A stretch of DNA of 64,000 nt from Bacteroides sp. Marseille-P3684 (GTDB lineage Bacteria > Bacteroidota > Bacteroidia > Bacteroidales > Bacteroidaceae), in NCBI RefSeq assembly GCF_900291465.1, contig NZ_LT985808.1, forward strand, positions 2,606,184 through 2,670,183. Direction: 5' to 3'. The notes under the pieces are model-generated. The model worked only from the letters and a program-made list of their open reading frames with translations, ran no database searches and was not told the DNA's origin. The translations under genes and the position numbers were made by a program. This document shows positions 3,537 to 52,257 of this stretch, one piece after another. Numbering within the stretch: the stretch's first letter is position 1; each line of letters starts with the position of its first letter.

Positions 3537-3624
3537 GAAACAATTGTGTTTGGCAGGTGAAACTATATTGTTTGAGGCGGCAAACTATATTGTTTGGCGC
3601 GCGAAACAATATTGTTCCGGGCAC
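3537..3624. repeat. 22-bp-period palindromic array A (4 units)
   Basis: Four consecutive 22-bp units start at 3537, 3559, 3581 and 3603. Each begins with a ~15-bp near-palindrome of the type GAAACAATATTGTTT (variants GAAACAATTGTGTTT, GAAACTATATTGTTT and CAAACTATATTGTTT), followed by a G/C-rich 7-bp spacer such as GAGGCGG. The period is exact. The array is extragenic and lies beyond the 3' end of the flavoprotein gene. Confidence 0.85.
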
Positions 3625-3822
3625 GTTTTGCCTGTTTTTCGAAAATGAAATGTATAGTTTTCTAAAATGAAGGGTATTTTCCCGGCATTCCGTTTGCAAT
3701 CATTCACGTTTCGTCTCCAGATTATCGGATTTTTGAAAAGGACGAGTTAGCGAGAAAGGTCATTTTTCATGCCTGATGATAGTAAATACCTCAATTCGCT
3801 GACATCCTGTTATTTTTCCTTA

Positions 3823-4407
3823 TCAGGAGAGCAACTTCCTTACTGCCCGACGGCAACGCTCCAAATCTTTTGCATCAACCGGTTTTTGACGCGTGCCTCC
3901 CCGCTCTATGCATACACGCAAGCGGAAGCCACTCCATTTCAATACTTCCTTCAAGGCACGAATCACCCCTCTCGTCTGATTAAACCATCTATTAAATGGA
4001 TAGGGAGTCGTGGAAGTGCTCACCATAATCGCCAGCTTTCCTTTATGCAGCGGACGGGGACCATATTTCCCCTCTCCAATCAATCCATACACCATCCGAT
4101 CAAGCAGGACTTTAAGCGTTCCCGGCATATTGCCCCAATAACAGGGTGCTCCTATTATCAAAGCATCACAACAATTAATCCGATGCAACGTGCGTTGTGC
4201 ATCGTCTTCCGGTAAAACGCATTCCAAACGCGAACGACACACCATGCATCCGGTACAGGGAGCTACCTGCAAATCGGATACATTGACCCAATCGACATGT
4301 ACACCGTGTGCCAGCGCTTCCTCACGCATGGCTTCAAGCATACGCGAGAGATTGCCCTTCCGACGTGGACTGGCATTGATAATCAGCAAATGTTCTACCT
4401 TACTCAT
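3823..4407 (-). CDS. flavodoxin-fold NAD(P)H-dependent FMN reductase / iron-sulfur flavoprotein-like
   Basis: This 194-residue protein has the NADPH-dependent FMN reductase fold. The N-terminal strand-loop IINASPRRKGNLSRML (residues 9-24) is the FMN phosphate-binding loop. Cysteines 51, 54, 57 and 63 form CX2CX2CX5C, matching the compact CX2CX2CX4-7C motif that binds a 4Fe-4S cluster in archaeal-type iron-sulfur flavoproteins. It may therefore pass electrons from a reduced carrier through FMN; substrate and partner are unknown. Its start codon overlaps the end of the upstream helicase-nuclease gene by 8 bp, so the two are probably co-transcribed and translationally coupled. Cluster binding is inferred from motif spacing only. 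Confidence 0.82.
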   Translation of the reverse strand: MSKVEHLLIINASPRRKGNLSRMLEAMREEALAHGVHVDWVNVSDLQVAPCTGCMVCRSRLECVLPEDDAQRTLHRINCCDALIIGAPCYWGNMPGTLKVLLDRMVYGLIGEGKYGPRPLHKGKLAIMVSTSTTPYPFNRWFNQTRGVIRALKEVLKWSGFRLRVCIERGGTRQKPVDAKDLERCRRAVRKLLS

Positions 4408-7228
4408 GGATTAAATGATAATTTCCTCCCAAGCACGTTGATTCATAGACCTGCAGGGCATGCACCAACGTTTGTTTGATTTTCTGCTCTTCCCCTGAAC
4501 CCGTTGTCGACAGAACCAGTAAAGGCAAGTCATACTTCCGGAAAACAGATTCTTTCAGTTCATCCCTCAGACTCTGCTCCGTCCCTTCGCGATGGAAACT
4601 GTAGCCATTCACTTCAATTCCCATGACCGGTAATTTACTGACTCTGTTAAACAGCAAAAAGTCCACATGGGTCTTTGCATGCGAAGTGTATTCATACTCC
4701 CGTTGCTCCAGCATCTGTTCTTTATGACGGAAAATAGAGCGTAACGGATAATGCAATACAACCTTCAGGTAAGCATATCCTCCTTCTTCCAGCACTTTCA
4801 GGATCAGCGGATAAAGTAAGTTTTCCGAATCATATTCCGAGACTTTCGGGTGCCGTTCCAGGTATTCCAGACGTTCTTTCGTGTAATGTTCATACAAATA
4901 ATCAAAAATGGACGAGACCTTACTTTCAACGACCGCACAGTTCTGATAGCTGATGTAATGCAGCAAATCTGTGAGATTGCCCTCCTTTTCCTGCTTTTCT
5001 CCGGTCATCACCAGACAGAACTTCTTCTTTGCCCGGGAAACAGCCACATTCAGCATGTTATCATCATCACAAAAGGGTGTAATCTGATTATCCACAGCAC
5101 TGAACACGATAGCGTCATTCTCCCGTCCCTGATACTTATGCACCGTCGCTGCCAGATCCGGTCTGCCAAACTCCTTATTGATGGCATCCACCTGATTATT
5201 GTAAGGAGTAACGATGCCCACATCATCAAAACCAGCCAGCGCGGGGAATACCTCACTCCTGATTACATCTATCTCCCGCTGGTTGCATTTATTCCGGGCA
5301 TGATTGCCTGCAACTGTCGTGAAAGCACTCAAGACATTCTCTTCTCCGGAGTCAGGAGTCATAATCAGCAGTTGCCCTCCATAGAACTTCTGGTTGCAGA
5401 AATTGATGATACGCGGATGGCAACGGTAATGTTCGCACAGCAAGGTCTGCGGAACCTCTTTAATCACTGCCCCAATCGAGGTCAACAAACTGTAAGAGGC
5501 ACAATCGTAACCTTCCGCCAAGTGATAACGCTCCTGCACAATCTTGAAACGCTTCCTGTCATCTTCCGTTACCACATTGGGCAACTGTTGCGAATCTCCC
5601 ACAATCACAGCATTGCGTGCACACGTCAATGCCAGGAAGCCCGTCTCAACAGCTACCTGCGATGCTTCATCGACGATGACATAATCATAAATGGTATTTG
5701 CAGCCAGACAGGAACGTGCCGAAAAGGTCGTGCTCAAGACGATGGGATATTGCTTCAAGACTTCGGAAGAGCGTTTCCACAGGTCTTCCTCCGAAACCAA
5801 GACCGGACGTCCGTCACGATACTTCCGGCAAAGGGCATCTTTCAGCAGGAGCAAGGAGTTCTCAGTCAAGACTGTCATCAAGGCTCCGGCATCCTGACGC
5901 TCCAGCGCTGACTCCAAAGCAGCTATAGCCTCACAAAGTTCCCGGCGACGCTTCGGGTAATACAAGGTCTGCAACCTCGTAATCAACGGAAGCAGATTTT
6001 CCCGCTCCATCCGTTTGGTCAGCCGGAACCAGTAACGGCAGAGGAATTTCAGCAGAAGCCACCTGAATCGTCCGCTCCAGCCATGGATGCCGACAGCAGC
6101 ATCTTCATCCACATAAGGCTGAAGCTCCAGCCACAACCTGAGCAACTTACCAGAAGTGAGGGAGGTGCTTTCCCGAGCGTCCTCTTCACCCAGAGCATGT
6201 TCCTGCTTGAAATGCTCCCATTCCAGGTTTGCAGCTTCCAGCTCCTGCCTCTTAACCGCCAAGTCATTCTGTAGGGAGAACACTGCATCCAACTGCCTGG
6301 AGGCTGTGTCTACCTTCTTTTGGGCATCCTGCACCTCCTCGCTTTGCCAGGAGAGCAACTCCTCGGGAAGAGGAGGTTGGGAACGGATAAATTCTCCCTT
6401 ATTCTCCTTATTGCCTAAGGGAGCGACCATGAAATCAAGACCATACTTTGCCAGCTTCTCCCGGATATTATCTGTTGCCGAATTGTTTGCCGACACCACC
6501 AGGGCGGTCTTGCCACGCATCACGATGTTAGCCAGGATATTCAGAATCGTTTGCGTCTTACCTGTTCCGGGAGGCCCCTGAACGATGCAGACCTGATGGG
6601 TGAAGGCTTGTCTCACCGCCTCTTTCTGACTGGCATTGCTTCCAAACGGATAAATCAGGTTTCCCGGCTCGGTCCTTTTAGGGGACGCCGAATACCCCAG
6701 GTAAAGGGAAGCTACCGTATCGTCGCCTACATAGCTGATAGCCGCATACTGCTTTTCCAGTATTCCTTGCACCGCCTCGTTCTTCCGGGGTTCTCCATTC
6801 TTGCCCAACGGATTCAGCCCGGCGATATGCTTCAGATAATCAAAGACGTCGTTGCTCCTGGAGTTGCACAAGCAATTCGTCACGACCCGGATACATTCAC
6901 CGGGATAATCCCGGTAACGCCCACTGTGAAAGACAATCCGCCAGAAGTCCTGCTCATCGTAAGCATAATGCCACACGTCCTTGAGTCCGGACAGTTCCTG
7001 GCCATTCAGAAAGATACGATTGACATCCGGGGCCGGGTCGACCCATTCACGCATCCGGTTGCCCAGGCATGCCAGGTTCTGCCGGCTATACCTGTAATAT
7101 TTGCTGCTGTTCGTGAAGCGTACCCGGTACATGCCGGCATCATCCTGCTCGAAAGAGGAAATCTCGGCACTCTTCGGCACCCATTTCCCTTCCTTCTTAA
7201 TCAATATATAATGGCTCGGTTCATTCAT
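4400..7228 (-). CDS. superfamily 1 (Upf1/DNA2-like) helicase with C-terminal nuclease-like domain
   Basis: This 942-residue SF1 helicase has Walker A GPPGTGKT (218-225), DEAS Walker B (520-523), GDSQQLP (544-550), YRCHP (601-605), TVHKYQGRE (695-703) and VAVSRAK (729-735). A ~270-residue insertion between Walker A and B (about 250-490) includes a helical, charged stretch. After the helicase core comes a ~190-residue C-terminal domain in which THVDFLLFN (D855) and GIEVNG (E873) look like the metal-binding acid pair of a PD-(D/E)XK or DUF2726/DUF559-type nuclease. The N-terminal ~195 residues are unassigned. It is upstream of, and overlaps, the flavoprotein gene. Helicase-nuclease fusions of this type often act in DNA repair or phage defence, but neither role is proven here. 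Confidence 0.85.
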   Translation of the reverse strand: MNEPSHYILIKKEGKWVPKSAEISSFEQDDAGMYRVRFTNSSKYYRYSRQNLACLGNRMREWVDPAPDVNRIFLNGQELSGLKDVWHYAYDEQDFWRIVFHSGRYRDYPGECIRVVTNCLCNSRSNDVFDYLKHIAGLNPLGKNGEPRKNEAVQGILEKQYAAISYVGDDTVASLYLGYSASPKRTEPGNLIYPFGSNASQKEAVRQAFTHQVCIVQGPPGTGKTQTILNILANIVMRGKTALVVSANNSATDNIREKLAKYGLDFMVAPLGNKENKGEFIRSQPPLPEELLSWQSEEVQDAQKKVDTASRQLDAVFSLQNDLAVKRQELEAANLEWEHFKQEHALGEEDARESTSLTSGKLLRLWLELQPYVDEDAAVGIHGWSGRFRWLLLKFLCRYWFRLTKRMERENLLPLITRLQTLYYPKRRRELCEAIAALESALERQDAGALMTVLTENSLLLLKDALCRKYRDGRPVLVSEEDLWKRSSEVLKQYPIVLSTTFSARSCLAANTIYDYVIVDEASQVAVETGFLALTCARNAVIVGDSQQLPNVVTEDDRKRFKIVQERYHLAEGYDCASYSLLTSIGAVIKEVPQTLLCEHYRCHPRIINFCNQKFYGGQLLIMTPDSGEENVLSAFTTVAGNHARNKCNQREIDVIRSEVFPALAGFDDVGIVTPYNNQVDAINKEFGRPDLAATVHKYQGRENDAIVFSAVDNQITPFCDDDNMLNVAVSRAKKKFCLVMTGEKQEKEGNLTDLLHYISYQNCAVVESKVSSIFDYLYEHYTKERLEYLERHPKVSEYDSENLLYPLILKVLEEGGYAYLKVVLHYPLRSIFRHKEQMLEQREYEYTSHAKTHVDFLLFNRVSKLPVMGIEVNGYSFHREGTEQSLRDELKESVFRKYDLPLLVLSTTGSGEEQKIKQTLVHALQVYESTCLGGNYHLIHE

Positions 7229-7376
7229 GGTCCTAAAACAAACAACGGGTTGACACGTTCATGAGGGGGACGAAGTTCCGGACGAACATTACACTCCTCC
7301 ACTCATCAACCTGCCAACCCGTCACTAAGTTACTTGCTTGTATACGTGCTGACTCCGCACCGGCGTATGGCGGACA

Positions 7377-8867
7377 TCAATAAGCTCGGGCAAAGAGCAC
7401 ACGGCGTGCCGACGGTTTACCGGTCAGCATGTCCACACCCGGCTGGAGACTTTCCTCGTCGGCATCAAACGGAATGCAACGGATGGTTGCCTTGGTTTCT
7501 TCCTTGATGCGCTCCTCTGTCTCGGTCGTACCGTCCCAGTGAGCCAGGATGAAGCCACCCTTCTCTATCTGCTCCTTGAATTGATCCCACGTATCCACCT
7601 TGAAGGTGTGAGACTGACGGTAATTCAGTGCCTTCTGATAGATATTGGCTTGAATCTCATCCAGCAGGTTCTTCACATATTCCTCGATACCGTCGCAAGA
7701 GACTGTATGCTTCTCCAGCGTATCACGACGCATGATTTCCATCGTGTTGTTCTCATAGTCACGGCCTCCCATCACCAGACGGACGGGAACGCCCTTCAGT
7801 TCGTAATCAGCAAACTTGAAGCCCGGACGCTTGTTGTCGGCATTATCATACTTCACCGAAATGCCCAATGCACGCAGACGGTCGACAATGCCAGCCACCT
7901 TTGCATCAATGAGCTTCAACTGCTCGTCACTCTTATAGATAGGCACAATGACAACCTGAATCGGAGCCAACTTCGGGGGCAGCACCAGTCCGTTGTCATC
8001 CGAATGGGACATGATGAGCGCACCCATCAGACGGGTCGACACACCCCATGACGTAGCCCACACGTAGTCCAGTTTGTTATCCTTGTCGACAAACTGCACG
8101 TCAAAAGCCTTGGCGAAGTTCTGTCCCAGGAAGTGCGAAGTACCGCTTTGCAATGCCTTGCCATCCTGCATCAAGGCTTCAATGGTATAAGTATCCAACG
8201 CACCGGCAAAACGTTCATTGGCAGACTTCACGCCTTTCATCACCGGCACTGCCATGTAGTTCTCTGCAAAATCCGCATAGACTCCCAGCATCTTCTGTGC
8301 TTCGGCCTCTGCCTCTTCACGAGTGGCATGTGCCGTGTGTCCCTCCTGCCACAAGAACTCAGCCGTACGCAGGAACAGACGGGTACGCATTTCCCAACGC
8401 ATCACATTGGCCCACTGGTTGCACAAGATGGGCAGGTCGCGGTAAGAGCGGATCCAGTTCTTATATGTACTCCAGATAATCGTTTCCGATGTCGGACGGA
8501 TAATCAGTTCCTCTTCCAGCTTGGCAGCGGGATCGACAATCACCCCACTCCCATCTTCGGCATTTTTCAAACGGTAGTGGGTCACTACGGCACACTCCTT
8601 GGCGAAGCCTTCCACATGTTCAGCCTCACGGCTCAGGTATGATTTCGGGATCAAAAGCGGGAAATAGGCATTCACGTGTCCGGTCTCTTTGAACTTGTCA
8701 TCCAGCACACGCTGCATCTTCTCCCAAATCGCATAGCCATAGGGCTTGATCACCATACATCCACGCACGGGTGATTGTTCAGCCAGGTCTGCCTTTACGA
8801 CCAAATCGTTATACCATTGCGAATAGTTCTCGCTACGCTTGGTCAGTTCTTTCAATTCTTTTGCCAT
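7377..8867 (-). CDS. proS: prolyl-tRNA synthetase (short archaeal/eukaryote-like type)
   Basis: ProRS charges tRNA-Pro with proline in the cytoplasm. The 496-residue length and the N-terminus ([20 protein letters not shown]) match the shorter ProRS class that lacks the editing insertion of E. coli ProRS and carries a C-terminal extension. Class II motif 2 is seen around [26 protein letters not shown], and motif 3-type residues fall in [19 protein letters not shown]. The start ATG at 8867 follows a -7-like element, TACTTTTG on the minus strand (8912-8919). It appears monocistronic: the helicase gene downstream begins ~150 bp further on. Confidence 0.97.
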
Positions 8868-9171
8868 TGCTTTATCTTGTTTTGATTATTACTCTTCGAT
8901 TTTTGCGAATGCAAAAGTAGTAATTTTCTAAAAAAGAGGCTCCATCTTTGACTTAATAAGTTAGGCGGAAGCGCGTGCGGTATCCGTACATTATTCTTCT
9001 ACCTCCTTCTGTCTCCTTGTCTACCCTTCTGCCGACAGAGCTGCTACCTCGCCATGAAGAAGCAGAAAATTAGACTAAATATTAATAAAAGCGGACTTTT
9101 TTAGCAACACTTTGTCAGATAAAGCCTATATTTGTCGATACAAAACGTGACATTAAATCATTAAAATTGAC
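8868..9171. other. divergent intergenic region proS / OmpA-like gene
   Basis: This 304-bp gap holds the promoters of two divergent genes. A minus-strand -7 element TACTTTTG lies at 8912-8919 for proS, and a plus-strand -7 element TATATTTG at 9127-9134 for the OmpA-like gene. Neither has a convincing -33 TTTG at the right spacing. I see no RNA gene or repeat in the remainder. Confidence 0.55.
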
Positions 9172-9891
9172 ATGAATATGAAAGGTATCAAAACAACTTC
9201 CTTGTTACTCAGCGGCCTGTTGGTATTGGGCAGTTGCGGTAATATGAACAACACCACGAAAGGTGGATTAATCGGTGCCGGCGGCGGTGCTGCATTGGGC
9301 GGCATCATCGGAGGTCTCGTAGGCAAAGGCAAAGGTGCAGCTATCGGCGCAGCCATCGGTACGGCTGTCGGAACAGGTGCAGGAGTCATCATCGGCAAGA
9401 AAATGGACAAAGCTGCAGAGGCAGCCCGTCAGGTAGAAGGTGCACAAGTGGAACAAATCACCGACGCAAACGGCTTGCAGGCTGTGAAGGTAACATTCGA
9501 TTCGGGTATCCTCTTCAACACCAGCAGCTCTGCCCTGAGCGCATCGGCACAAAGCGCACTGAGCAAGTTTGCCAACAATGTCCTGAAGCAGAACAACACC
9601 ATGGATATTGCCATCAAGGGTTATACCGACAATCAGGGATGGCGCAACAGTACGGCTGAACAAAGCGTACAGAAGAACATCCAGCTGTCACAACAACGTG
9701 CACAAAGCGTTTCTTCCTACTTGCTGAACTGCGGCGTAGCCTCCAGCCAGATCAAGTCAGTTGAAGGTCTGGGCGAGGCTAATCCCGTAGCCGACAACTC
9801 GACCAAGGAGGGACAGGCACAGAACCGTCGCGTAGAAGTCTACATGTACGCCAGCGAACAGATGATTCGCGATGCCGAAGCAGGTAAGTAA
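9172..9891 (+). CDS. OmpA-family lipoprotein with glycine-zipper region
   Basis: This 239-residue protein is predicted to be outer-membrane anchored. A signal peptide ends in the lipobox LGSC (lipidated Cys22). Residues ~31-75 form a Gly/Ala-rich glycine-zipper helix pair (repeated GAAIGAAIGT-type motifs), which is likely membrane-inserted or oligomerising. The C-terminal OmpA domain (about 100-232) carries the peptidoglycan-binding signature around IAIKGYTDNQG and NRRVEVYMY. The organisation matches the YiaD/Pal class that ties the outer membrane to peptidoglycan. A second in-frame ATG lies two codons in. A strong hairpin terminator follows at 9922-9953, so the gene is probably a single transcription unit. 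Confidence 0.92.
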   Translation: MNMKGIKTTSLLLSGLLVLGSCGNMNNTTKGGLIGAGGGAALGGIIGGLVGKGKGAAIGAAIGTAVGTGAGVIIGKKMDKAAEAARQVEGAQVEQITDANGLQAVKVTFDSGILFNTSSSALSASAQSALSKFANNVLKQNNTMDIAIKGYTDNQGWRNSTAEQSVQKNIQLSQQRAQSVSSYLLNCGVASSQIKSVEGLGEANPVADNSTKEGQAQNRRVEVYMYASEQMIRDAEAGK

Positions 9892-9921
9892 AATCATCAC
9901 ATCCATATTAAATGAATTGTC

Positions 9922-9953
9922 AGAAAGGAGGCACCTCACGGCGCCTCCTTTCT
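9922..9953 (+). terminator. terminator of the OmpA-like gene
   Basis: A perfect 11-bp stem (AGAAAGGAGGC / GCCTCCTTTCT) with a 10-nt loop is followed by TTGGTTTT, 30 bp after the stop codon. Confidence 0.85.
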
Positions 9954-10046
9954 TGGTTTTCAAAGGAAAGCTTCCCGGGCTGCAAGGGGGACAGACACCG
10001 GAAAGCTCTAGAGAAAAACATAAAGAGCATGCTATCAGTAACCTTA

Positions 10047-10244
10047 AACCCAAATCGGTCATTAGACCGCTCAAAGTTCTCTTTGTTTCAAAAGAGCAAG
10101 CTCTTTGAGCATCTTGTCCACCTCTGTCGGCATCTTCTTCCTCGTTCTGTCTCGACGTAGCCCGCTACGTCTTCAACAAAACGAGAAACAAGCTGCAGGA
10201 CAGATGCGAACAATCTACTCAAACTCAAATGACCGATTTGGGTT
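10047..10244. repeat. 198-bp element with 17-bp terminal inverted repeats and inner hairpins
   Basis: AACCCAAATCGGTCATT at 10047-10063 is repeated exactly in inverted orientation at 10228-10244. Inside are nested inverted repeats: GCTCAAAG/CTTTGAGC near 10069-10110, GACGTAGC/GCTACGTC near 10154-10172, and CTCG/CGAG flanks around the second. No coding frame looks real. It may be a MITE-like palindromic element or a structured RNA. It lies between the OmpA-like terminator and array B. Confidence 0.65.
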
Positions 10245-10309
10245 AAACCCAAATCATGCTTATACTATCCGGCGGATAGACTTCGTCTATGCCGTACTTC
10301 AACCGACCA

Positions 10310-10375
10310 AAGTATGATACTTAGGCCCCCTAAGTATCATACTTTGGCAGGCTAAGTATTATACTTTGCCTCATC
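10310..10375. repeat. 22-bp-period palindromic array B (3 units)
   Basis: Units start at 10310, 10332 and 10354. Each begins with the 13-bp palindrome AAGTATNATACTT (N is G, C, T in order), followed by a 9-bp spacer such as AGGCCCCCT or TGGCAGGCT. The last unit runs over the stop codon of the neighbouring minus-strand lipoprotein gene (10371). The same core recurs in array C at 32338. Confidence 0.88.
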
Positions 10376-10907
10376 TAAGCCGGGCTTGTGTCTCATCTGT
10401 CCCGCCGATGTCTTCGATACGGAACTGATGGAATGTCAGACTGACGTTCCGGTCATTCGGATGCATACCCGGCTGTACCGCGACACAGACCGACATGCCA
10501 TCGACAGCTTCCAGCACATAGGAGTGCCCGTCTCCGGAAAGCATCCGGTACCACATCCCGTTCTGGGTATACAGGAACTTGATGGCATTCGATGTCTCAT
10601 ACTCCCAGGTTATCCGGTAATGAGACAGCTCTCCTTTACTGAAGGTGAACATACAGGTCTGTTCGTCGTAGTCCACATAATCCAAGTCTGTCACATCTTC
10701 CTTCAAGAAGTTCAATACCGTCACCCTTGTCAGTGAATCCGTCGTGAAGGACACCAGGTTGGCATCGGTGCATTCATACTGGAAAGGTTCGTCCAATGTC
10801 AGCTTGGGCAAAGGCTGATACTCCGTTGTCACAGCGTCATCGTCGCATGAAGTCATGGAGAAACTCCCCAAAAACAAACCAGCCATCAATGCAAAACGTC
10901 CGTACAT
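10371..10907 (-). CDS. hypothetical lipoprotein, probably surface-exposed
   Basis: This 178-residue protein has a signal peptide and a lipobox-like MTSC with Cys21, immediately followed by three aspartates. An acidic run right after the lipid-anchored Cys is the known Bacteroidota lipoprotein export signal, so surface exposure is likely. The remaining ~155 residues are beta-rich and hydrophilic, and I recognise no domain. Its 3' end overlaps array B. Upstream is a ~480-bp gap shared with the divergent AraC-type gene; a long inverted repeat (10954-11013) sits in its presumed leader. Confidence 0.75.
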   Translation of the reverse strand: MYGRFALMAGLFLGSFSMTSCDDDAVTTEYQPLPKLTLDEPFQYECTDANLVSFTTDSLTRVTVLNFLKEDVTDLDYVDYDEQTCMFTFSKGELSHYRITWEYETSNAIKFLYTQNGMWYRMLSGDGHSYVLEAVDGMSVCVAVQPGMHPNDRNVSLTFHQFRIEDIGGTDETQARLR

Positions 10908-10953
10908 AAGTAAATCTCGTTTAGTTATATGAGTTATTTTGTTTGAAAAAGGT

Positions 10954-11013
10954 GAAGGGACCGGTTCACACTCCGTTCAAATCATCTCTAAACCCGTTTA
11001 TTCCGGTCCCTTC
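10954..11013. repeat. inverted repeat in the leader of the lipoprotein gene
   Basis: GAAGGGACCGG (10954-10964) and CCGGTCCCTTC (11003-11013) are perfect 11-bp complements separated by 38 nt, about 50 bp upstream of the lipoprotein start. This could be a leader hairpin or an operator. The remainder of the 10908-11391 gap is AT-rich and shows no gene. Confidence 0.55.
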
Positions 11014-11356
11014 GACCACTCAAACCGATGCAAAATTGAAAAGAAGAGCCTATAAACTGCTTGTTTGATTCTGTACTAAATTTGTCTATTACTAAACAAC
11101 GTACTCCCTGTCCTACTATTTGGAAAGTCTGTTTGTCAATATGGAAATAATATGACAATACGAATGGAAACTATCAGTAGCGGAACTCTATCCGCGAACG
11201 AAGGAAGATGAAAGACTTATTTACCAATTCCGGTTACTTATCAATTCTATTTAACAGAAACACAAATCATTCGGTAACTTATCGATAGATTTTGGTCATT
11301 AATCTAGAGAAACTCTCCCTTTATCTATTTTAAAACTATCCTTTTTTACAAATTCC

Positions 11357-11364: not shown

Positions 11365-11391
11365 CTTGCCTACTTATCCAATGATACGACT

Positions 11392-32179: not shown

Positions 32180-32337
32180 AAAGAAAGCGTTACATTGAAT
32201 CTCTGCAAAGATAACAGTACTTCGTAAATATCATGCCATCCGTCCGGTAGAAATGCAGGAACAGGAGCTGAAGGTCCCGGGATAAAGCCGACATGAGTAC
32301 GGCATCGATGAGATACAAGCCGGGCTTATACAGACCA

Positions 32338-32403
32338 AAGTATTATACTTAGGTAGGCTAAGTATTATACTTAGGGTGCCTAAGTATTATACTTTGCTCC
32401 GTC
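32338..32403. repeat. 22-bp-period palindromic array C (3 units)
   Basis: Units start at 32338, 32360 and 32382, each beginning with the identical 13-bp palindrome AAGTATTATACTT. The spacers are AGGTAGGCT, AGGGTGCCT and TGCTCCGTC. This is the same sequence class as array B, ~22 kb away. It lies between the YgbA-like gene and the candidate RNA terminator. Confidence 0.88.
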
Positions 32404-32479
32404 TATCCGCCACTTATACGATATCTCGGAAGCACATGGACGGGATTAACCCATCGTTTCCCCGGACCGGAGCACCTAC

Positions 32480-43597: not shown

Positions 43598-43632
43598 TTT
43601 CCAAAAGTAACTTAAAAACATCAACAGGTGAT

Positions 43633-44595
43633 ATGAAAAACGTATTGATTATCGGTTCTACCGGTCAGATAGGCTCAGAGCTGACCATGAAGCTCAGGAG
43701 CATCTATACCAATGGTAATATCGTAGCCGGTTACATCCCGGGAGCTGAACCCAAAGGCGAGCTGAAGGAGAGCGGACCTTCTGCCCTTGTAGACATCACC
43801 AATCCCCAACAGATTGCCGATGCCGTCGAGAAATACCAGATTGACACTATTTACAACCTAGCCGCCCTGTTGTCTGCCGTGGCTGAAGCCAAGCCGCAAC
43901 TGGCATGGAAGATTGGCGTAGGTGGACTCTTCAACACGCTGGAAGTGGCACGCGAAAAGAGATGTGCCGTCTTTACTCCCAGCTCCATCGGTTCATTCGG
44001 TCCTGAAACTCCGAAAGACAAAACACCGCAAGACACCATCCGCAATCCACGGACCATGTATGGTGTGACTAAAGTTACAGGAGAGATGCTGAGCGACTAC
44101 TATTTCCGTCATTTCGGCGTAGACACCCGCTCGGTACGCTTCCCCGGTCTGATCTCTTACGTGACTCCCCCGGGAGGAGGCACTACAGACTATGCCGTAG
44201 ACATCTACTATGCGGCAGCCAAGGGTGAGAAATTCCTCTGCCCCATCGCCGCCGGCACTTTCATGGACATGATGTATATGCCCGACGCCCTGCGTGCCGC
44301 CATTGAAATCATGGAAGCCGACCCGTCCAAGTTCATCCACCGCAACTCTTTCAACATCGCGTCCATGAGCTTTGACCCGGAAATCATTTACCACAAAATC
44401 AAGGAATATCGTCCTGACTTCCAAATGGAATATCAGGTTGACCCGCTCCGTCAGAGCATTGCCGAGTCATGGCCGAACTCCCTCGACGACACTTGCGCCC
44501 GGGAGGAATGGGGTTGGAAACCCGAATATGACCTGGATGCCATGACCCGCGACATGCTGGACAAGCTCAGCGCCCGTTTTGGTAAGCAACAATAA
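43633..44595 (+). CDS. tdh: L-threonine 3-dehydrogenase, epimerase (SDR) type
   Basis: This 320-residue extended short-chain dehydrogenase oxidises L-threonine with NAD+ to 2-amino-3-ketobutyrate. The Rossmann GSTGQIGSEL lies at residues 8-17, and the catalytic Tyr-Lys pair is in MYGVTKVTGEM. Unlike E. coli Tdh (zinc-dependent MDR), this belongs to the UDP-galactose-4-epimerase-like Tdh group. The divergent kbl encodes the next step, which supports the assignment. Confidence 0.93.
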   Translation: MKNVLIIGSTGQIGSELTMKLRSIYTNGNIVAGYIPGAEPKGELKESGPSALVDITNPQQIADAVEKYQIDTIYNLAALLSAVAEAKPQLAWKIGVGGLFNTLEVAREKRCAVFTPSSIGSFGPETPKDKTPQDTIRNPRTMYGVTKVTGEMLSDYYFRHFGVDTRSVRFPGLISYVTPPGGGTTDYAVDIYYAAAKGEKFLCPIAAGTFMDMMYMPDALRAAIEIMEADPSKFIHRNSFNIASMSFDPEIIYHKIKEYRPDFQMEYQVDPLRQSIAESWPNSLDDTCAREEWGWKPEYDLDAMTRDMLDKLSARFGKQQ

Positions 44596-44630
44596 ACGGT
44601 AGCACAATACCTATTGCATCAAGCCGGAGA

Positions 44631-44669
44631 CGGATTTTATTCATTCAATCTTCTGATGAATAAAATCCG
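44631..44669. terminator. bidirectional terminator tdh / acyl-CoA synthetase
   Basis: A 14-bp stem CGGATTTTATTCAT / ATGAATAAAATCCG with an 11-nt loop extends outward through GAG/CTC. It lies between convergent genes, 35 bp past the tdh stop codon. Confidence 0.8.
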
Positions 44670-44756
44670 CCTCTTCTTTATGGCTGCATGGGACCACACC
44701 GGTCTTCAGCTTCCGTAAATCATGGAAAGGTACGGGACAGGCTCTTGAGAGAGTTG

Positions 44757-46415
44757 TCAGAGCCGTACATCCTGATAGAGGTAACGCTTGATGCTCTTCT
44801 TGGCGGTCTTCTCAAACTCCTCGGGCCATAACTTGATGCGCGAGATTTGAGCATAGCCGGGCAACTGGGCATTCAGTTCCTGACGGTTCTTCTCCATCAG
44901 CTCCTCAATTCGTGCCGGAGAACGGCTTGCCTCACCCAACTCCGACCAATCGGGATATACCAATGCCACCAGACGGTCGTGATTCAGGATGACAATGCTC
45001 TCCGAAACATAAAGCATATTGTTCAGCTTGGACTCTATCTCTTCCGGATAAATGTTCTGTCCCGAAGCTGTCAACAACATATTCTTGCACCGTCCCTTGA
45101 TGAACACATGACCTTCCTCGTCCATGATGGCCATATCGCCGGTATGGAGCCAACCGTCCTTGTCAATAATCTGATGAGTTGCCTCCTCATTCTTATAATA
45201 ACCCAGCATCACATTGGCTCCCCGACAGACAAGCTCACCGGGAACCGTATGCGGGGAAGGCGAATCAATCTTAAGCTCCATGCGCGGCACAACCTGACCA
45301 CAGGACATATACTTCAGATTCGTCCAAAAATTATGGCAGATGATCGGACCGCATTCCGTCATGCCGTATGCAATGGTATAGGGGAAGTCTATCAGGCGCA
45401 GGAAGGCTTCCACCTCGGCATTGAAGGGAGCACCCCCGATGATGATTTCAATGAAATTTCCACCGAACGTCTGCATCGCCTCCTCGCGTGCCTTCATCTT
45501 TATCTTGTCATTGATAATGGGCACCTTCAGCAGGAAACGTCCCAGCTTGGTATCGACACGCGGCAGGATATTCTTCTTGAAAATCTTCTCTACAACCAGC
45601 GGTACGCTCGAAATGACCCGGGGACGTATCTCTGCAAACGACTCAGCGATGACTTTCGGCGAAGGCATACGGGTCAGGAACCACAGATGGGCACCCTGAC
45701 AGACGCCGAACAAAAAGTCGAAGACCATACCGAACACATGTCCCAGGGGCAACATGGACACGATGCTGTCACCCGGACGGAGGGCAATCCGTTCCCGGCA
45801 AAGCATCACATTGGAGAGGATGCTGCGGTAAGGCAACATGACTCCCTTGGAGTAACCCGTCGTTCCCGAAGTATAGTTGATGATGGCAAGTTCCTCAGGC
45901 TCTTCCCGCCGATAGGCTACCTGCTCCGCACGGAAACTACAGGGGTAATGATGTCCGAAACGCTCGTTGCGATGTGCATGCGCTGCCGAAATCTGTTCCG
46001 AACGTGACACCAACAACGAAAAATCAGGCAAGGAGGCAATCGCTTCCAGTCCCGGCATGAATGCCTCGTTCAGGTTCTCCCACACCTGGTCGCCGACAAA
46101 GAGCAGGCGTGCTTCAGAGTGGTTGACGATATGATGTACGTTGTCCGGCTTGAACTCATGCAAAATGGGGACTGCCACCGCACCATAAGTGATTACTCCC
46201 AGGAAAGCGACCACCCAATGGGCACTGTTACGCCCGCAAATGGCAACCTTGTCACCCGGACGGATTCCTCCATCCTCCAATATAATATGCATCTTGGCTA
46301 TCTTACGTGCTACGTCCTTATAGCGTAATGTGGCCCCCTTGAAATCGGTGAGCGCATCCAATTCCCAATTCTTCTTAATGCTCTCTTCAATAAGTGCGAT
46401 AAAACTGTTGTCCAT
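44757..46415 (-). CDS. AMP-forming long-chain acyl-CoA synthetase
   Basis: This 552-residue ANL-superfamily enzyme activates fatty acids to acyl-CoA through an acyl-adenylate. ATP-binding motif I is IINYTSGTTGYSKGVMLP. The later motifs are AYGMTECGP and DGWLHTGDMAIMDEEGHVFIKGRCKN (C-terminal hinge and core). The closest match is the long-chain FadD type, but the chain length is uncertain. It is convergent with tdh, with the HAD gene divergent upstream. Confidence 0.92.
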   Translation of the reverse strand: MDNSFIALIEESIKKNWELDALTDFKGATLRYKDVARKIAKMHIILEDGGIRPGDKVAICGRNSAHWVVAFLGVITYGAVAVPILHEFKPDNVHHIVNHSEARLLFVGDQVWENLNEAFMPGLEAIASLPDFSLLVSRSEQISAAHAHRNERFGHHYPCSFRAEQVAYRREEPEELAIINYTSGTTGYSKGVMLPYRSILSNVMLCRERIALRPGDSIVSMLPLGHVFGMVFDFLFGVCQGAHLWFLTRMPSPKVIAESFAEIRPRVISSVPLVVEKIFKKNILPRVDTKLGRFLLKVPIINDKIKMKAREEAMQTFGGNFIEIIIGGAPFNAEVEAFLRLIDFPYTIAYGMTECGPIICHNFWTNLKYMSCGQVVPRMELKIDSPSPHTVPGELVCRGANVMLGYYKNEEATHQIIDKDGWLHTGDMAIMDEEGHVFIKGRCKNMLLTASGQNIYPEEIESKLNNMLYVSESIVILNHDRLVALVYPDWSELGEASRSPARIEELMEKNRQELNAQLPGYAQISRIKLWPEEFEKTAKKSIKRYLYQDVRL

Positions 46416-46596
46416 TGTCCTAAGCTTACTATTTAACGGTAAGAATGCGCATTTCTTACCAAAATGTGCACAAACATAGAAAAATAGTCGCGGAGTGAAG
46501 GATTAGTCAATAGAAGTTTACATTCTTTTAACAAGGAAGTCTTCGCCAATCCCCATGCTCTTTCGAACTTTGCACGCGGAAAAAGACTTGTTTTTT

Positions 46597-47247
46597 ATGG
46601 ATAATAATCAACCTATCGCTGCCCTTTTCGATTTGGACGGCGTCATTGTGGATACAGAATCGCAATATACCCTCTTCTGGCGCAGGCAGGGAGAAGCCTA
46701 CCGTCCGGACATGCCGCACTTTGAACAGCGCATCAAAGGCATGACCCTCACCCAAATCCTGGAGTTCTTTGCCGACCAGCCGGGCATCCCCGAGCGTATT
46801 CAGGAGGAGCTCAATCAGTTTGAAACCCGAATGGACTACACCTATATCCCGGGAGCAACAGATTTCATCCGTGCCCTGCGTATACAGAATATCCGCACGG
46901 CGGTGGTGACCAGTTCGAATACGAAAAAAATGGAGAATGTCTACCGCGCCCATCCGGAATTCACGTCCTTGTTTGACCGCATCTTTACCGCAGAAGATTT
47001 CCAACATTCCAAGCCCGACCCGGACTGTTACCTGCTCGGAGCCCGCGTGTTCGGCACTGTGCCTGAACGTTGCTTCGTTTTCGAAGACTCGTTCAACGGA
47101 CTGCTGGCAGGCAGACGTGCCGGAATGACCGTCATCGGCCTGTCTACCACCAATCCCGAAGCCGCCATCCGCGACCTGGCAGACGTGGTCATCCCCGACT
47201 TCACAGGCTTCAGCGTTGAAAAGATGCACGCACTCATACGGCAATGA
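46597..47247 (+). CDS. HAD-family sugar-phosphatase/phosphoglucomutase-like hydrolase
   Basis: This 216-residue HAD subfamily IA protein has FDLDGVIVDTE (about residues 10-20) as motif I with the nucleophilic Asp, VVTSSNTKK (motif II), and KPDPDCYLLGA and VFEDSFNGL for motifs III-IV. The helical cap resembles beta-phosphoglucomutase, but the phosphosugar is unknown. The start at 46597 is preferred over an in-frame ATG at 46555 because the family begins just before the DLDG motif. It precedes panB by 77 bp. Confidence 0.9.
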   Translation: MDNNQPIAALFDLDGVIVDTESQYTLFWRRQGEAYRPDMPHFEQRIKGMTLTQILEFFADQPGIPERIQEELNQFETRMDYTYIPGATDFIRALRIQNIRTAVVTSSNTKKMENVYRAHPEFTSLFDRIFTAEDFQHSKPDPDCYLLGARVFGTVPERCFVFEDSFNGLLAGRRAGMTVIGLSTTNPEAAIRDLADVVIPDFTGFSVEKMHALIRQ

Positions 47248-47258
47248 CACAAAAAGTA

Positions 47259-47266
47259 TAACTTTG
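47259..47266 (+). promoter_or_regulatory. -7 element before panB
   Basis: TAACTTTG matches TAnnTTTG, 58 bp before the panB start codon. No -33 TTTG at 19-21 nt. Confidence 0.45.
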
Positions 47267-47324
47267 CATCCGCTTTACAAGAAGCTCTTGCACATTTATC
47301 TAACAAAACGACTAAAAAAAAATC

Positions 47325-48146
47325 ATGTCAGGCTATATTTGCAATGATACGAAGAAAGTGACTACTCACCGGTTGCTGGAAATGAAAGAGAATGGTGAGA
47401 AAATCTCCATGTTGACTTCCTACGACTTCACTACCGCCTCCATCGTCGACGGGGCCGGTATGGATGTCATCCTCGTAGGCGATTCTGCCTCCAATGTCAT
47501 GGCAGGCAACGCCACAACCCTCCCCATCACCGTCGATGAAATGATTGTCTACGGACGTTCCGTGGTGCGGGGCACCCGGCGTGCACTCGTGGTCATCGAC
47601 ATGCCTTTCGGCTCTTACCAGGCTGCTCCTTACGACGGTGTGGCAACGGCCGTCCGCATGATGAAGGAAACCGGAGCCGATGCCCTTAAGCTGGAAGGCG
47701 GGGAAGAGTTCATCGATGTCATACGCAAGATAATCAATGCTGGAGTACCGGTCATGGGACACTTGGGACTCATGCCGCAATCCATCAACAAATACGGGAC
47801 GTACGGCGTACGTGCCAAAGAGGATGCCGAAGCCCAGAAGTTGCTCCACGATGCGCACCTGCTGGAAGAAGCCGGTTGCTTTGCACTCGTTCTGGAGAAG
47901 ATTCCGGCAACGCTGGCGGCACGTGTCACTGCCGAACTGCACATCCCGGTCATCGGTATCGGTGCCGGAAGCGATGTGGACGGTCAGGTGCTCGTGGTCA
48001 CCGACATGCTGGGCATGAACAACGGCTTCCATCCGAAATTCCTCCGGCGCTATGCCGACCTTCATACGGTCATGACAGATGCCGTCGGACAATACATCCG
48101 CGACGTGAAAGACGGAGATTTCCCTAACGAGAATGAACACTATTAA
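47325..48146 (+). CDS. panB: 3-methyl-2-oxobutanoate hydroxymethyltransferase
   Basis: First step of pantothenate (and hence CoA) synthesis: it adds a hydroxymethyl group from methylenetetrahydrofolate to 2-oxoisovalerate. The 273-residue TIM-barrel protein shows [26 protein letters not shown], GYxxA-type [11 protein letters not shown] and [15 protein letters not shown]. The neighbouring MFS gene begins before its stop codon (14-bp overlap with one candidate start), hinting at co-transcription. No pantothenate partner gene (panC) is visible here. Confidence 0.95.
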
Positions 48147-49314
48147 GCACATGGAAACACCTGTGACCGGTTCGCAACGACCGCAGCGGACAAGACTCTG
48201 GACAAACAACATCTGGCTGATTTGCCTGTCGCACCTGCTCTTGTCCACCTCGCTCTATATGCTCATCCCGACCCTCCCCGTATGGCTGGTGGTGAGGTAT
48301 GGTGCCAATTCGTTTGAGATAGGCGGCATCCTCGCCCTTTCCGGCCTGGTCGCCTTCATGCTGGGCCCATTCTTCAACTACCTGGTTGACCGTTTCCCCC
48401 GGAAAAGCGTCTGCGCCTGGGGACTCCTGGGTGTAGCAGCCTGCTCCCTGGGTTTCTATTGGGTTCCCGTTTTGGGCTGGGTCGTCGCATTGCGTGTCGT
48501 ACAGGGCATGCTGCAAGGCGTGGCACTCATGGCGTCGGGCAGCACACTTGCCATCGACCTGACGACCTCTCCCCACCGCACGGATGTGAACAATGCATTT
48601 GCCTGGTTCGGACGCCTGGGACTGTCCGTCGGGCCGCTGATGGGCTTGCTCGTACAATACCTGTTCGGATTCCACAACGTCTTTATCGCTTCCTTCGTCA
48701 TCGGCATGTTAGCCTGCCTGTGCGTCCTTTGTCTGAAGGTTCCCTTCCGGGCTCCCTTGTGTCCCCCGAAGTTCTCCCTCGACCGCTTCTGGCTGCCCAA
48801 TGGATGGCTGATGTTCCTGCAGACCATCCCGGTCGCTGCCGTCACCGGCATATTGCTCGGGACCATCCACCGTTACGAGTTCTACGTCTTCATCATGGTC
48901 GGCTTCTGCCTGGCACTGCTCGCCCTGCATTTTGTGTTCCTCAATGCCGACATCCGCTCGGAAATCGTCAGTGGGAACATCCTGTGGGCTGCCGGACTGC
49001 TGCTCCTGATATTCCGCGAAGGGACTCCCGCCTTCTATGCCTCCTCCATTCTGATAGGCATGGGTATCGGACTGACCGTAGCCCGTCTGCTGGTGTTCTT
49101 CATCAAGCTGTCCCATCACTGTGAGCGCGGCTCTGCCAACACCTCGTACATGTTTGCCTGGGAACTGGGTATCGGACTGGGACTATTCCTGGGATACACG
49201 GTCTTCCCCGATCCTTTGGAAAGCTACTGGGTATGCCTGTGGATACTTGCCGGAGCACTCGTGTTCTACCTGCTGCTCACCCACCGCTGGTTCATGGCAC
49301 ACAAAGTGCGGTGA
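48133..49314 (+). CDS. MFS-type major-facilitator exporter
   Basis: This 393-residue protein has about 12 hydrophobic helices and an MFS signature region around the loop after helix 2 ([16 protein letters not shown]), typical of drug:H+ antiporters. Substrate unknown. Two starts are possible: 48133, overlapping panB by 14 bp, or ATG 48151, 4 bp after the panB stop. The second gives a tidier junction and cannot be excluded. Confidence 0.88.
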
Positions 49315-49342
49315 GGACGTCATGACATATTCACACCATTTG

Positions 49343-49374
49343 TTTGTCCCCTTCCACAAAATGCGTTAACTTTG
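49343..49374 (+). promoter_or_regulatory. promoter of ssb
   Basis: TTTG (49343-49346), exactly 20 nt, then TAACTTTG (49367-49374): both elements match the Bacteroidota consensus. It lies 28 bp before the ssb start codon. Confidence 0.85.
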
Positions 49375-49402
49375 GCGGACATACTTTAAATACCCTATAA
49401 AC

Positions 49403-49834
49403 ATGTCAGTAAATAAAGTCATATTGTTAGGAAACGTCGGGAAAGACCCGGAAGTGAGATACCTGGACGGTGGTGTCGCTGTAGCAACTTTTCCGCTTGC
49501 CACCACGGAACGGGGGTATACACTGCCCAACGGGACAAAAGTCCCGGACCGCACCGACTGGCACAACATCATCTTGTGGAGAGGATTGGCACAAGTGGCC
49601 GAGAAATATGTGCATAAAGGCGACAAGCTCTACATCGAAGGGAAACTCCGTCCCCGCACGTATGACGACCATAACGGAATCCGCCGCTCCGTCGTCGAGA
49701 TTTATGCCGACGTGATGGAGATGTGCTCCTCGCCGCGCCCTGCCGCTCCTGCCAACACGGCGACGGCGTCCGCTGAACCGAACACGGCAACGGCTTCGGA
49801 GGCTACTGACAGCAACGACGGCTTGCCCTTCTAA
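49403..49834 (+). CDS. ssb: single-stranded DNA-binding protein
   Basis: Coats single-stranded DNA during replication and repair. The 143-residue protein has an OB-fold (about 1-105: SVNKVILLGNVGKDPEVRYL, TDWHNIILWRGLAQVAEKYV, GDKLYIEGKLRPRTYDD). A short Ala/Thr/Ser-rich linker follows, then the acidic C-terminal tip ending DGLPF, used for protein partners. The upstream promoter is consensus. The downstream gldE lies 27 bp away. Confidence 0.96.
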   Translation: MSVNKVILLGNVGKDPEVRYLDGGVAVATFPLATTERGYTLPNGTKVPDRTDWHNIILWRGLAQVAEKYVHKGDKLYIEGKLRPRTYDDHNGIRRSVVEIYADVMEMCSSPRPAAPANTATASAEPNTATASEATDSNDGLPF

Positions 49835-49861
49835 CCCTATTGTTTCACTAATTCATCAGTT

Positions 49862-51220
49862 TTGGACTCAGATTCGTATTCGCGCTTTTGGACAGACATT
49901 GCCAACCAAGTGACAGTAACCATGCCCGATGTGGGGACGTGGTTCATCCTTCTGCTGACCCTGCTCCTGCTCATGGCTTCGGGCATGGTGTCAGCCTCTG
50001 AAACAGCCTTCTTCTCGCTCACACCGGGCGAACGCAACCGGATTGAACAGGGGGAATCAGCCGCCTACCGGCGCATCCACTCCCTGTTGAAGGATTCGGA
50101 ACGCCTGCCCGCCACCCTGCTCATTGCCGACAACTTCATCAACGTCGCCTTCATCATCCTGGGCAACCATGTGCTCATGCAGTCGCTCGATTACGGCGTG
50201 CCGGCCGCTCTCACCCTCTTCTTCAATACCCTTATCCTGGCGGTTCTGATTCTCCTGTTCGGGGAAATCATGCCCAAGACCTATGCCGCCCGGCATGCCT
50301 TGCCCGTCTGTCGTACGGCCTCCCCCTTCCTCACCTTCTTCCGACGCCTCTTCCGCCCCGTCTCCGGAGTGTTGATACGTGCCCATCGGACGGTCAACCA
50401 GGTAGTGGTCAAGGAGAACTACAACATCTCGGTCGATGAACTCTCGCAGGCACTGGAGCTGACGGACAAGAACGACATATCCGACGAACAAAGCATGCTG
50501 CAAGGCATCATCCGCTTTGGAGGAGAGACCGCCAAGGAAGTCATGACACCCCGTCCCGACATCGTCGGCCTGGACATACAGACTCCCTTCCCGGAAGTAA
50601 TCCGCTGCATCATCGACAATGCCTATTCGCGCATCCCCATCTACCAACGGTCACGCGACAACATCAAAGGCATCCTCTATATCAAGGACCTGCTGCCGCA
50701 CCTGGACAAGGGGAACACCTTCCGTTGGCAGTCACTGATACGTCCTCCTTACTTTGTTCCTGAAACCAAGATGCTCGACGACCTGCTGCGCGAGTTCCAG
50801 CAGAACAAGGTGCACATGGCCATCGTCGTCGACGAGTTCGGAGGAACATCGGGACTGGTCACCATGGAAGACATCATCGAGGAAATCGTGGGCGAAATCA
50901 ACGACGAATACGATGAAGACGAACGCACCTACATCAAGTTCAACGACTCGACCTACATCTTTGAAGGCAAGACGCTCCTGTCCGACTTCTACAAGATTGT
51001 CGGGACCGATGAAGACAGCTTTGAAGATGTGGTCGGAGAAGCCGATACCTTGGCCGGGCTTCTGCTGGAACTGAAGGGCGAGTTCCCCAAACGGCACGAG
51101 AAACTGACGTACCGCAACTTCACCTTCGAAATCCTGGAAATGGATGAACGGCGCATCCTGAAAGTAAAAGTCACCTTGTCCCCTCTTCCGGGTAAAGACG
51201 AGGAAACAGCTCATTCCTGA
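49862..51220 (+). CDS. gldE: CNNM/CorC-type transporter GldE (gliding motility-associated)
   Basis: This 452-residue CNNM-like protein begins with a DUF21 membrane domain (about 27-190, several hydrophobic helices), then two CBS domains (about 220-340) and a C-terminal CorC/HlyC-type domain (about 360-440). It matches GldE, named for gliding, but homologues occur in non-gliding Bacteroidota, where Mg2+/Co2+ transport or envelope support is more plausible. The order ssb-gldE-phosphopantetheinyl transferase is typical. The start at 49862 is TTG; an ATG at 49922 gives a 20-residue shorter protein with no loss of domain. Confidence 0.85.
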
Positions 51221-51230
51221 TTCGCTCCCC

Positions 51231-51866
51231 ATGCCTCTCTATCGTTCAGCACCCCTGACTGACGACGGCGGATGGGCCGTCTGGAAGGTAACGGAAACGG
51301 AAGCGACACTACGCTCCCTGTTACCGGCGGAAGGAGCCTACCTGCAGGAACTGTCACTGTTTCAAGCTCACCCCAAGCGTAAGTTAGAGCGCCTCGCCGT
51401 CCGCACGTTGATGTTCAACTGCTGGAAGACAGAACACCCGGTGGCTTACACTCCCGACGGCAGACCTTATCTGACGGACGGCACTTACTCCATCAGCATC
51501 TCCCACACCGACGGCTACGTCGCGCTATGCTGGCATCCGCATCACGACGTGAGCATCGACATCGAACGCCTTTCTCCCAAAGCCCTCCGCCTGAGTACCA
51601 GATTCATGCATCCGGACGAACATGCCGAAGGCGACCCACTGACGGCAGCCGTACTACATTGGAGCAGCAAGGAGACTCTGTACAAGCTCCTTCGCCGGCA
51701 AGAAGACACAGACTTCCTCCACCACCTCCGTATCCATCCTTTCATCCTTGCTTCCCAAGGTCAGCTGACGGGAGAAGACCTTCGCGACAGCCGGGAGCGC
51801 TTTACCATTGATTACCTTTTGGACACAGACTTTGTACTGACACGAGCCATGCGCCAGCCATTCTAA
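51231..51866 (+). CDS. 4'-phosphopantetheinyl transferase (Sfp-like)
   Basis: Transfers the phosphopantetheine arm from CoA to carrier proteins. The 211-residue protein shows YSISISHTDGYVALC, DVSIDIERL (metal-binding Asp/Glu) and HWSSKETLYKLL, the three conserved Sfp/AcpS-type motifs. It starts 10 bp after the gldE stop codon, so it is probably co-transcribed with ssb and gldE. Array D starts 23 bp after its stop codon. Confidence 0.93.
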   Translation: MPLYRSAPLTDDGGWAVWKVTETEATLRSLLPAEGAYLQELSLFQAHPKRKLERLAVRTLMFNCWKTEHPVAYTPDGRPYLTDGTYSISISHTDGYVALCWHPHHDVSIDIERLSPKALRLSTRFMHPDEHAEGDPLTAAVLHWSSKETLYKLLRRQEDTDFLHHLRIHPFILASQGQLTGEDLRDSRERFTIDYLLDTDFVLTRAMRQPF

Positions 51867-52257
51867 CGAAACGAAGTCCAAGCTTTCAGTTCCACGCCGT
51901 GGGAATCGTAGTCCCACGCCGTGGGAATCACAGTTCCACGCCGTGGGAATCACAGTTCCACGCCGTGGAACTCACAGTCCCAAAGCCTGGAACTCACAGT
52001 CCCAAAGCCTGGAACTCGCAGTCCCAAAGCCTGGAACTCGCAGTCCCAGAATATGGACTTCCGATTGGGACTGCCATTTCAGGATACAGGCAGGAGGAAA
52101 CAACTGATTATGAATCACTTTTCAGCATCTGTAAACGAATCGGTCATTCACCGTCTGAAGTTCAGTCTCATATCAGGAAAAGACTTCAGGCAGTGAATGA
52201 CCGACAGGGAATACATGTGATAGCCGGATAAGAGGAACACCTCACCGGATGGTTACC
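51867..52257. other. 391-bp gap between convergent genes
   Basis: The gap contains array D (51890-52065) and ~190 bp of ordinary sequence (52066-52257) in which I see no gene, RNA motif or clear terminator. Both flanking genes end here, so array D may serve as or replace a terminator. Confidence 0.6.
51890..52065. repeat. 22-bp-period palindromic array D (8 units)
   Basis: Eight tandem 22-bp units start at 51890, 51912, 51934, 51956, 51978, 52000, 52022 and 52044. Units 1-4 carry a palindrome of the type TTCCACGCCGTGGAA (variants with TCCC or GGGA). Units 5-7 carry TCCCAAAGCCTGGAA, and units 6 and 7 are identical. The tails are ATCGTAG, ATCACAG, CTCACAG or CTCGCAG. Unit 8 is degenerate. The array lies between the 3' ends of convergent genes. 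Confidence 0.9.

Follow-up and report, generated by a model that had tools for sequence, protein, structure and literature searches.

The window, a 64,000-bp stretch of the Bacteroides sp. Marseille-P3684 chromosome (G000:C1:2606184-2670183; genome G000 of approximately 3.7 Mb), holds four arrays of short palindromes with a period of 22 bp, and arrays with this step recur across the genome and upstream of HU-HIG genes in other genomes. We consider it somewhat probable, judging from the sequences, that each array offers several docking sites on double-stranded DNA to sequence-specific proteins of the HU-HIG family (PF18291; HU_rel, TIGR01201).

Palindrome arrays in the window and in the genome

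A preliminary description had reported four arrays of period 22 in the window, and inspection of the sequence with a 22-bp ruler located all of them (Table 1). In array D, (T/C)CCACGCCGTGG units grade into CCCAAAGCCTGGA units with weaker symmetry, and after merging this class counts 12 genomic places. The HU-HIG gene at 1.96 Mb of this genome has an array of the class to which B and C belong. One array was said to run over a stop codon, and array B indeed ends within the 3'-terminal part of ORF 10371-10907(-). The further statement that the arrays lie near gene 3' ends applies in part: approximately 200 bp separate array A from the 3' end of ORF 3823(-), but it is also located approximately 1 kb upstream of a 16S gene (- strand), as window positions 1-2553 belong to an rRNA operon of the - strand.

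Searches of Rfam gave no match at the arrays and one weak match to MicX at 2996-3121, far under its threshold. The 221 bp around array B had no DNA match in phages, and the B lattice was not found in viral contigs. The sequences also contain dispersed 7-bp tandem arrays of CAATTGT/CAATTGA (window 626-658, L047:9668, L049:8730, L050:9757, and L052:1632-2516), and a separate element of approximately 35 bp, another abundant repeat family, is present in many stretches.

Table 1. Arrays and repeats of the window (window positions), PF18291 matches of the same genome (chromosomal positions) and arrays of the congener G032 (stretch:position).
Feature	Position	Strand	Description
Array A	3537..3624	.	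Four class-A units, period 22, imperfect palindromes AAAC-N6-GTTT
Dispersed repeat of ~510 bp carrying array A	3245..3757	.	At least 40 genome places, several in rRNA-operon flanks
B element	10239..10436	.	Three cores and about three decaying 22-bp slots per side
Array B cores, AAGTATNATACTT x3	10310-10322, 10332-10344, 10354-10366	.	Exact, period 22
Palindrome AAGCCGGGCTT flanking B	10376-10386	.	On the lattice; absent from the preliminary list
C element	32267..32464	.	Of class B, including the slots of its flanks
Array C cores, AAGTATNATACTT x3	32339-32351, 32361-32373, 32383-32395	.	Exact, period 22
Palindrome AAGCCGGGCTT flanking C	32318-32328	.	On the lattice; absent from the preliminary list
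Array D	51886..52065	.	Eight units, period 22
HU-HIG gene	1960065 (1.96 Mb)		Class-B array at promoter
HU-HIG gene	440866		Class-E array ~230-310 bp upstream, ahead of promoter
HU-HIG genes	208524 and 758412		No array within 900 bp upstream
HU-HIG gene	1555705		No array within 600 bp; A array 650-750 bp upstream
Two PF18291 matches	one at G000:C1:1432727-1432918		In-frame stops; the one with coordinates is a degraded HU-HIG copy
One PF18291 match			Plain HU
G032 arrays, CATATG / GCTCGCGAGC class	L104:2588, 10166, 15080; L105:12238, 17206; L106:7786, 17831		Tandem scan

For the comparison with chance, the genome was sampled as evenly spaced 20-kb stretches, 35 of which (700 kb) were scanned for lattices of at least three palindromes at a fixed step of 14-60 bp, regardless of sequence. 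Period 22 gave 20 arrays, two of which are to be discounted (the window's own array A and one CAATTGT microsatellite), against 0-4 for every other period; shuffled sequence gave two matches in total and none at period 22. A scan for tandem repeats peaked at the same step, with 32 of 1505 tiles at 22, 1-3 at 20, 21, 23, 24, and 30, and 11 at the harmonic 44. The palindrome of arrays B and C, AAGTATNATACTT, has 167 copies in the genome and its reversed-pattern control 1. At up to one mismatch, AAACAATATTGTTT has 237 copies (control 1), and CGGACGCGTCCG, which defines a further class, E, has 85 (control 13). The preliminary description would have abandoned its rule had there been no excess over chance or had periods varied between loci; the 700-kb lattice scan shows an excess at a single period, and the copy counts exceed their controls. 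That the period is conserved and the sequence is not holds for this genome and for other genera.

Two further kinds of tandem repeat were observed. Arrays around the palindromes ATACAGTGTAT and ATACGTCGTAT have a period of 41 (L058:15735-15976 and L061:7222-7494), possibly a second helical-step rule of approximately four turns, and a 23-bp tandem array of CACAAATAACCGAACGGAATCGT at L065:5230-5372 has no clear palindrome.

HU-HIG genes and their upstream arrays

Among 1058 ORFs near arrays, HU-HIG/HU_rel was the only family found near arrays in three genomes. In these genomes the array lies at most approximately 160 bp upstream of the HU-HIG gene and starts soon after TACCTTTG. The array-adjoining gene can be assigned to the HU-HIG clade of the HU/IHF family, as it passes the cut-offs of both PF18291 (65 bits, cut-off 26.2) and HU_rel (96.7 bits, cut-off 68.6); among solved structures it gave weak matches to HU/IHF only (best E 0.025). 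A 2017 paper on the HU/IHF clades reportedly predicts roles in chromosome partition and conflict in Bacteroidetes, and we know of no palindromic site arrays described for the HU-HIG clade. HU-HIG matches were obtained in 43 of the 61 genomes searched, including the genome under study, and plasmids yielded only three distant HU_rel relatives.

The association was quantified on 29 HU-HIG loci from this search, the genome under study being set aside, and 16 loci picked by hand from the same matches before their upstream regions were seen; two of these 45 had too little upstream sequence and were dropped. A tandem array, scored as an identity of at least 29/44 at lag 22 within 460 bp upstream, was present in 16 of the 43 genes, compared to 0-2 at other periods and 11 at the harmonic 44. 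The downstream regions of the same genes had such an array in 3/45 cases (Fisher p = 6e-4), the upstream regions of genes predicted on randomly chosen stretches of other genomes in 9/295 (p = 3e-10), and the subset of these random upstream regions whose gap is 150 nt or longer in 7/158 (p = 1e-7). Tiles gave 14/1290 (p = 7e-18), a flattering comparison as the tiles are mostly coding. By a palindrome criterion 12/43 HU-HIG upstream regions scored, with 0-5 at other periods except for 7 at period 15, against 2/45 downstream regions (p = 0.003) and 12/295 random upstream regions (p = 4e-6). Either criterion identified an array in 17/43, leaving 26/43 without one, and 3-4% of random genes carry upstream 22-bp arrays as well.

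The units differ between genes, for instance AAAGGTCTGACCTTT, ATCAATGGCATTGAT, CGAGGCCCTCG, CAATACGGCATATTG, and TTCCGGGAA. A TAnnTTTG box, which we take to be the Bacteroides -7 box, precedes the array by 10-36 bp in 8 of the 21 array-bearing upstream regions (L107, L138, L158, L163, L182, L184, L187, and L194); another 8 of the 21 have no such box. Within one genome the units of paralogs differ as a rule (9 of 10 pairs score 9 or less, one scores 13), with three distinct operators in G032, two in G037, and three in G007. The near-identical HU-HIG genes of G073 and G032 share an operator, and the other paralogs of these genomes have others. The B core is common to operators of G274, CASEKR, and the genome under study, and the operator class of G274 and CASEKR recurs elsewhere in those assemblies. 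Over 21 genes, similarity between proteins correlated with similarity between operators (Pearson 0.38, 0/3000 permutations), a result carried by a few close pairs; the rank test was weak (Spearman 0.15, p = 0.045). The G037 paralogs L167 and L205 are approximately 93% identical (11 differences in 154 residues) and have different operators. Residues 4-20 hold six of these differences and two more are close to the tip of the arm, which makes the residues concerned candidate determinants of specificity.

A binding array for a dimeric protein was one of three roles offered in the preliminary description, and it is the best supported of them, with HU-HIG as the candidate family. A symmetric HU-HIG dimer would read one palindrome, and the 22-bp step, equal to two helical turns, would bring neighboring dimers side by side onto one face of the DNA. 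Different paralogs would read different palindromes. One array would be placed at or near the paralog's own promoter, sometimes just after the -7 box, allowing for negative autoregulation, and the palindrome of that paralog would also be placed in intergenic arrays elsewhere. We infer that HU-HIG itself would bind and repress its own gene, and that the dispersed arrays would organize or mark regions.

Alternatively, one or more unrelated DNA-binding proteins could bind the arrays and regulate the HU-HIG genes among other targets, which we consider unlikely. The promoter arrays do resemble repressor operators, some dispersed classes lack an HU-HIG operator, and binding by HU-HIG is predicted from sequence features. 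However, paralogs within a genome have unlike operators, and the near-identical genes of G073 and G032 have one in common, so that an outside regulator would have to diversify in step with the HU-HIG genes. Binding by HU-HIG would be the simplest account of paralog-specific operators, and it does not yet cover all classes.

The genome under study has eight PF18291 match places (Table 1). No operator matching classes A or D was found upstream of its HU-HIG genes; the A array upstream of the gene at 1555705 was not counted as an operator, the rough chance of such a placement being approximately 7% given some 110 A arrays. In G032, which has ten HU-HIG matches, the CATATG / GCTCGCGAGC class matched none of the seven HU-HIG upstream regions examined. 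Dispersed classes thus do not all have a matching HU-HIG operator in their genome; the unmatched classes either have owners beyond the genes examined or are in part the sites of other proteins. A doubled GTGAACGC motif was observed before the promoters of several HU-HIG paralogs in two species (L208, L210, and L212 of the genome under study and L217 of G032), and is perhaps a second kind of operator.

Anatomy and distribution of class B

Class B arrays have exactly three cores in 25 of 29 cases, the others having 4, 4, 7, and 17. Their flanks remain on the 22-bp lattice with a position-specific consensus that fades over slots 1-4 (16.8, 11.0, 5.8, and 2.0 bits) to 0.9-1.5 bits beyond slot 4. 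As this fading consensus is on the lattice at both sides, the B element comprises approximately nine slots with two-fold symmetry. Units of class-A type adjoin the cores in 6/29 arrays. In 849 kb, which like the sample of 15 arrays used for gene orientation below includes the window as well as the four stretches L067-L070, which were picked for holding B arrays, we counted 65 exact cores, 1 with one mismatch, and 23 with two mismatches (the shuffle background for the latter is 10 per 400 kb), while the flanks diverge. The two spacers of the 25 three-core arrays comprise only 15 distinct words in 50; the expectation for independent sites is 35, and the lowest of 5000 simulations gave 23. These words are reshuffled between arrays in both orientations, in 20 pairings over the 25 arrays. 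Such a small and shuffled vocabulary lends partial support to the earlier suggestion that the arrays are products of unit copying. At L067:9811-10200 and L068:9533-9690, B arrays of 17 and 7 near-identical units stand between mirrored flanks of class-A type, as though they had grown by insertion of units at the center.

The B core is nearly specific to this species: its own genome has 167 copies, and ten congeners have 0-3. Of 298 other genomes, G274, from another genus, has 9 copies, G088 has 8, and the rest have at most 5 among the matches listed. The class-A lattice was found in 1 of 151 genomes, the genome under study only. Two arrays were present in two G274 stretches (39 kb), one of which was chosen for its B match. 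In 20 kb from each of 16 genera, there were two arrays at period 22, one at 55 (at the same place), and none at other periods or in shuffled sequence. A strict palindrome scan of 80-100 kb from each of three congeners detected no arrays; the tandem scan detected seven of the CATATG / GCTCGCGAGC class in 80 kb of the congener G032, one borderline match in G073, and none in G054. In a species-level genome collection, pairs of B cores 22 bp apart occurred in 23 stretches, of which 22 are titled Bacteroidales and one "uncultured bacterium." Seven contigs of a single MAG, JAFVFY of Prevotella sp. RGIG5135, carry such pairs (L125, L128, L129, L134, L140, L145, and L146), and class B may be dispersed in this organism too.

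The arrays could also be MITE- or REP-like mobile palindromic elements built of 22-bp bricks and copied by a transposase or recombinase, with the HU-HIG sites a case of domestication. The location of class A inside the dispersed repeat of approximately 510 bp, the few B spacer words shuffled in both orientations, and the near species-specificity of the array classes all fit this explanation. Nevertheless we judge it improbable: the conservation of B fades slot by slot without a sharp end, the cores are exact while the flanks diverge, and mobility by itself leaves the enrichment at HU-HIG genes unexplained. A Y1/RAYT transposase was also not found, PF01797 having 0 matches in G000 and matching 5 of 14 named genomes in the control. 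The REP/BIME repeats associated with RAYT are described as many short extragenic palindromes with GTAG/CGTC tags that form hairpins (PMC3733652). The arrays likewise consist of many short extragenic palindromes, and differ in their fixed 22-bp step and in the lack of a detectable RAYT gene. Identity with REP/RAYT was rejected on the PF01797 result and on the failure to find compensatory change in hairpins when 23 elements were compared in their spacers and flanking slots.

Another relevant system is the BrickBuilt MITE of Porphyromonas gingivalis. It has a 23-nt unit, AGAYCATARTATCCTCTCRTRTG, at 19 loci, with small inverted-repeat ends (PMC4596501), and shares with our arrays the intergenic tandem repeats of approximately two helical turns, a leader and tail, and a Bacteroidales host; by our reading, its consensus has no clear palindrome per unit. 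Instead of a 23-nt repeat with a leader and a tail ending in inverted repeats, the elements studied here have, in the classes observed, a period of 22 and, in class B, symmetric fading flanks; class A has conserved asymmetric flanks.

The preliminary description further proposed hairpin strings in the 3' ends of mRNAs. We regard RNA or cruciform hairpins at mRNA ends, acting as terminator or stabilizer, as very improbable. Whole arrays do fold better than shuffled sequence (z -3.1 to -12.2), as any palindrome array must. The gaps holding B arrays, assigned with our own gene finder, which misses some genes, were convergent in 8, tandem in 7, and divergent in 0 of 15 cases (background 37, 121, and 48 of 206), an orientation that would suit hairpins. 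In 23 simple B elements, however, the mirrored slots 1-4 showed no covariation (p 0.28-0.72), nor did the halves of slot 1 at its true center (p 0.22); of the 20 tests in all, two off-center ones, both on slot 3, had p values of 0.02 and 0.03. This analysis addressed the flanking slots and spacers, the invariant cores being uninformative, and has modest power with 23 elements. In addition, complementarity between the core spacers is, if anything, below the chance level, the core palindromes have a loop of zero or one base, and the arrays beside HU-HIG genes sit upstream. Covariation thus gave the proposed role no support. Terminator-like sequence was present in 7/30 of the gaps between gene ends and arrays, the only regions scanned for it, against a background of 19/149. 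The genes adjoining the longest arrays encode a GH10 enzyme, an M3 peptidase, Dus, a PKD-like protein, or proteins without known function.

Neutral tandem duplication by slippage, to which the arrays of 7 and 17 near-identical units might be ascribed, has next to no probability, as unrelated palindromes share one exact period and other periods are not raised.

Chromosomal placement and significance

In the sampled stretches the GC skew turns from negative to positive within 0.28-0.6 Mb, with some noise, and back to negative around 2.2 Mb, so that the origin should be located near 0.3-0.6 Mb. Class E, with 30 places by exact matches, has a mean position of 0.54 Mb (R 0.76), and 27 of the 30 places fall within 0-1.235 Mb, a third of the chromosome that surrounds the origin as placed by GC skew. 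Its placement differs from that of A, B, and D (0/5000 permutations each). No concentration was found for the A element (p = 0.45, for a list confined to places of the ~510-bp element) or for the B places (p = 0.13), and class D gave p = 0.07. The B places, at least 51 as assembled from the matches listed and including three single cores, are also not regularly spaced (gap CV 0.88 against 0.97 for random placement, 95% 0.76-1.25). Stretches from the 0-1.235 Mb region have a GC content of 0.50-0.60, and the class-E sequence is itself GC-rich, which makes GC content a possible confounder; the low control count of class E (13) argues against it as the sole cause. The dispersed arrays may organize or mark the chromosome, and for class E this is plausible from its position alone.

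Returning to HU-HIG as the putative binder, we tentatively envisage, as a rather doubtful extension, a multi-specificity chromosome-addressing code in Bacteroidales. An expanded set of autoregulated HU-HIG paralogs, each with a fast-changing palindrome, would bind helically phased arrays that label regions of the chromosome, class E labeling the origin third, and would act as parallel region-specific organizers. In the MatP/matS and ParB/parS systems a dimeric protein recognizes a short palindrome of 13-16 bp at many chromosomal sites with a regional distribution. The regional distribution resembles that of class E; the protein folds are different, and each of these systems has one conserved site, in contrast to the several paralog-specific sites here. 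To our knowledge, neither system has phased 22-bp arrays. The titles and abstract openings covered by our literature search, which extended to few subscription journals, held no description of the arrays.

HU-type proteins are commonly regarded as packagers with weak specificity. The proposed binding, if confirmed, would provide a DNA target for a large and little-characterized family of gut-type bacteria, would account for a class of unexplained intergenic repeats, and would reveal a fast divergence of the sites of a nucleoid-type protein. The predicted site of many paralogs would moreover be readable from the DNA upstream of their genes, allowing for direct and cheap tests.
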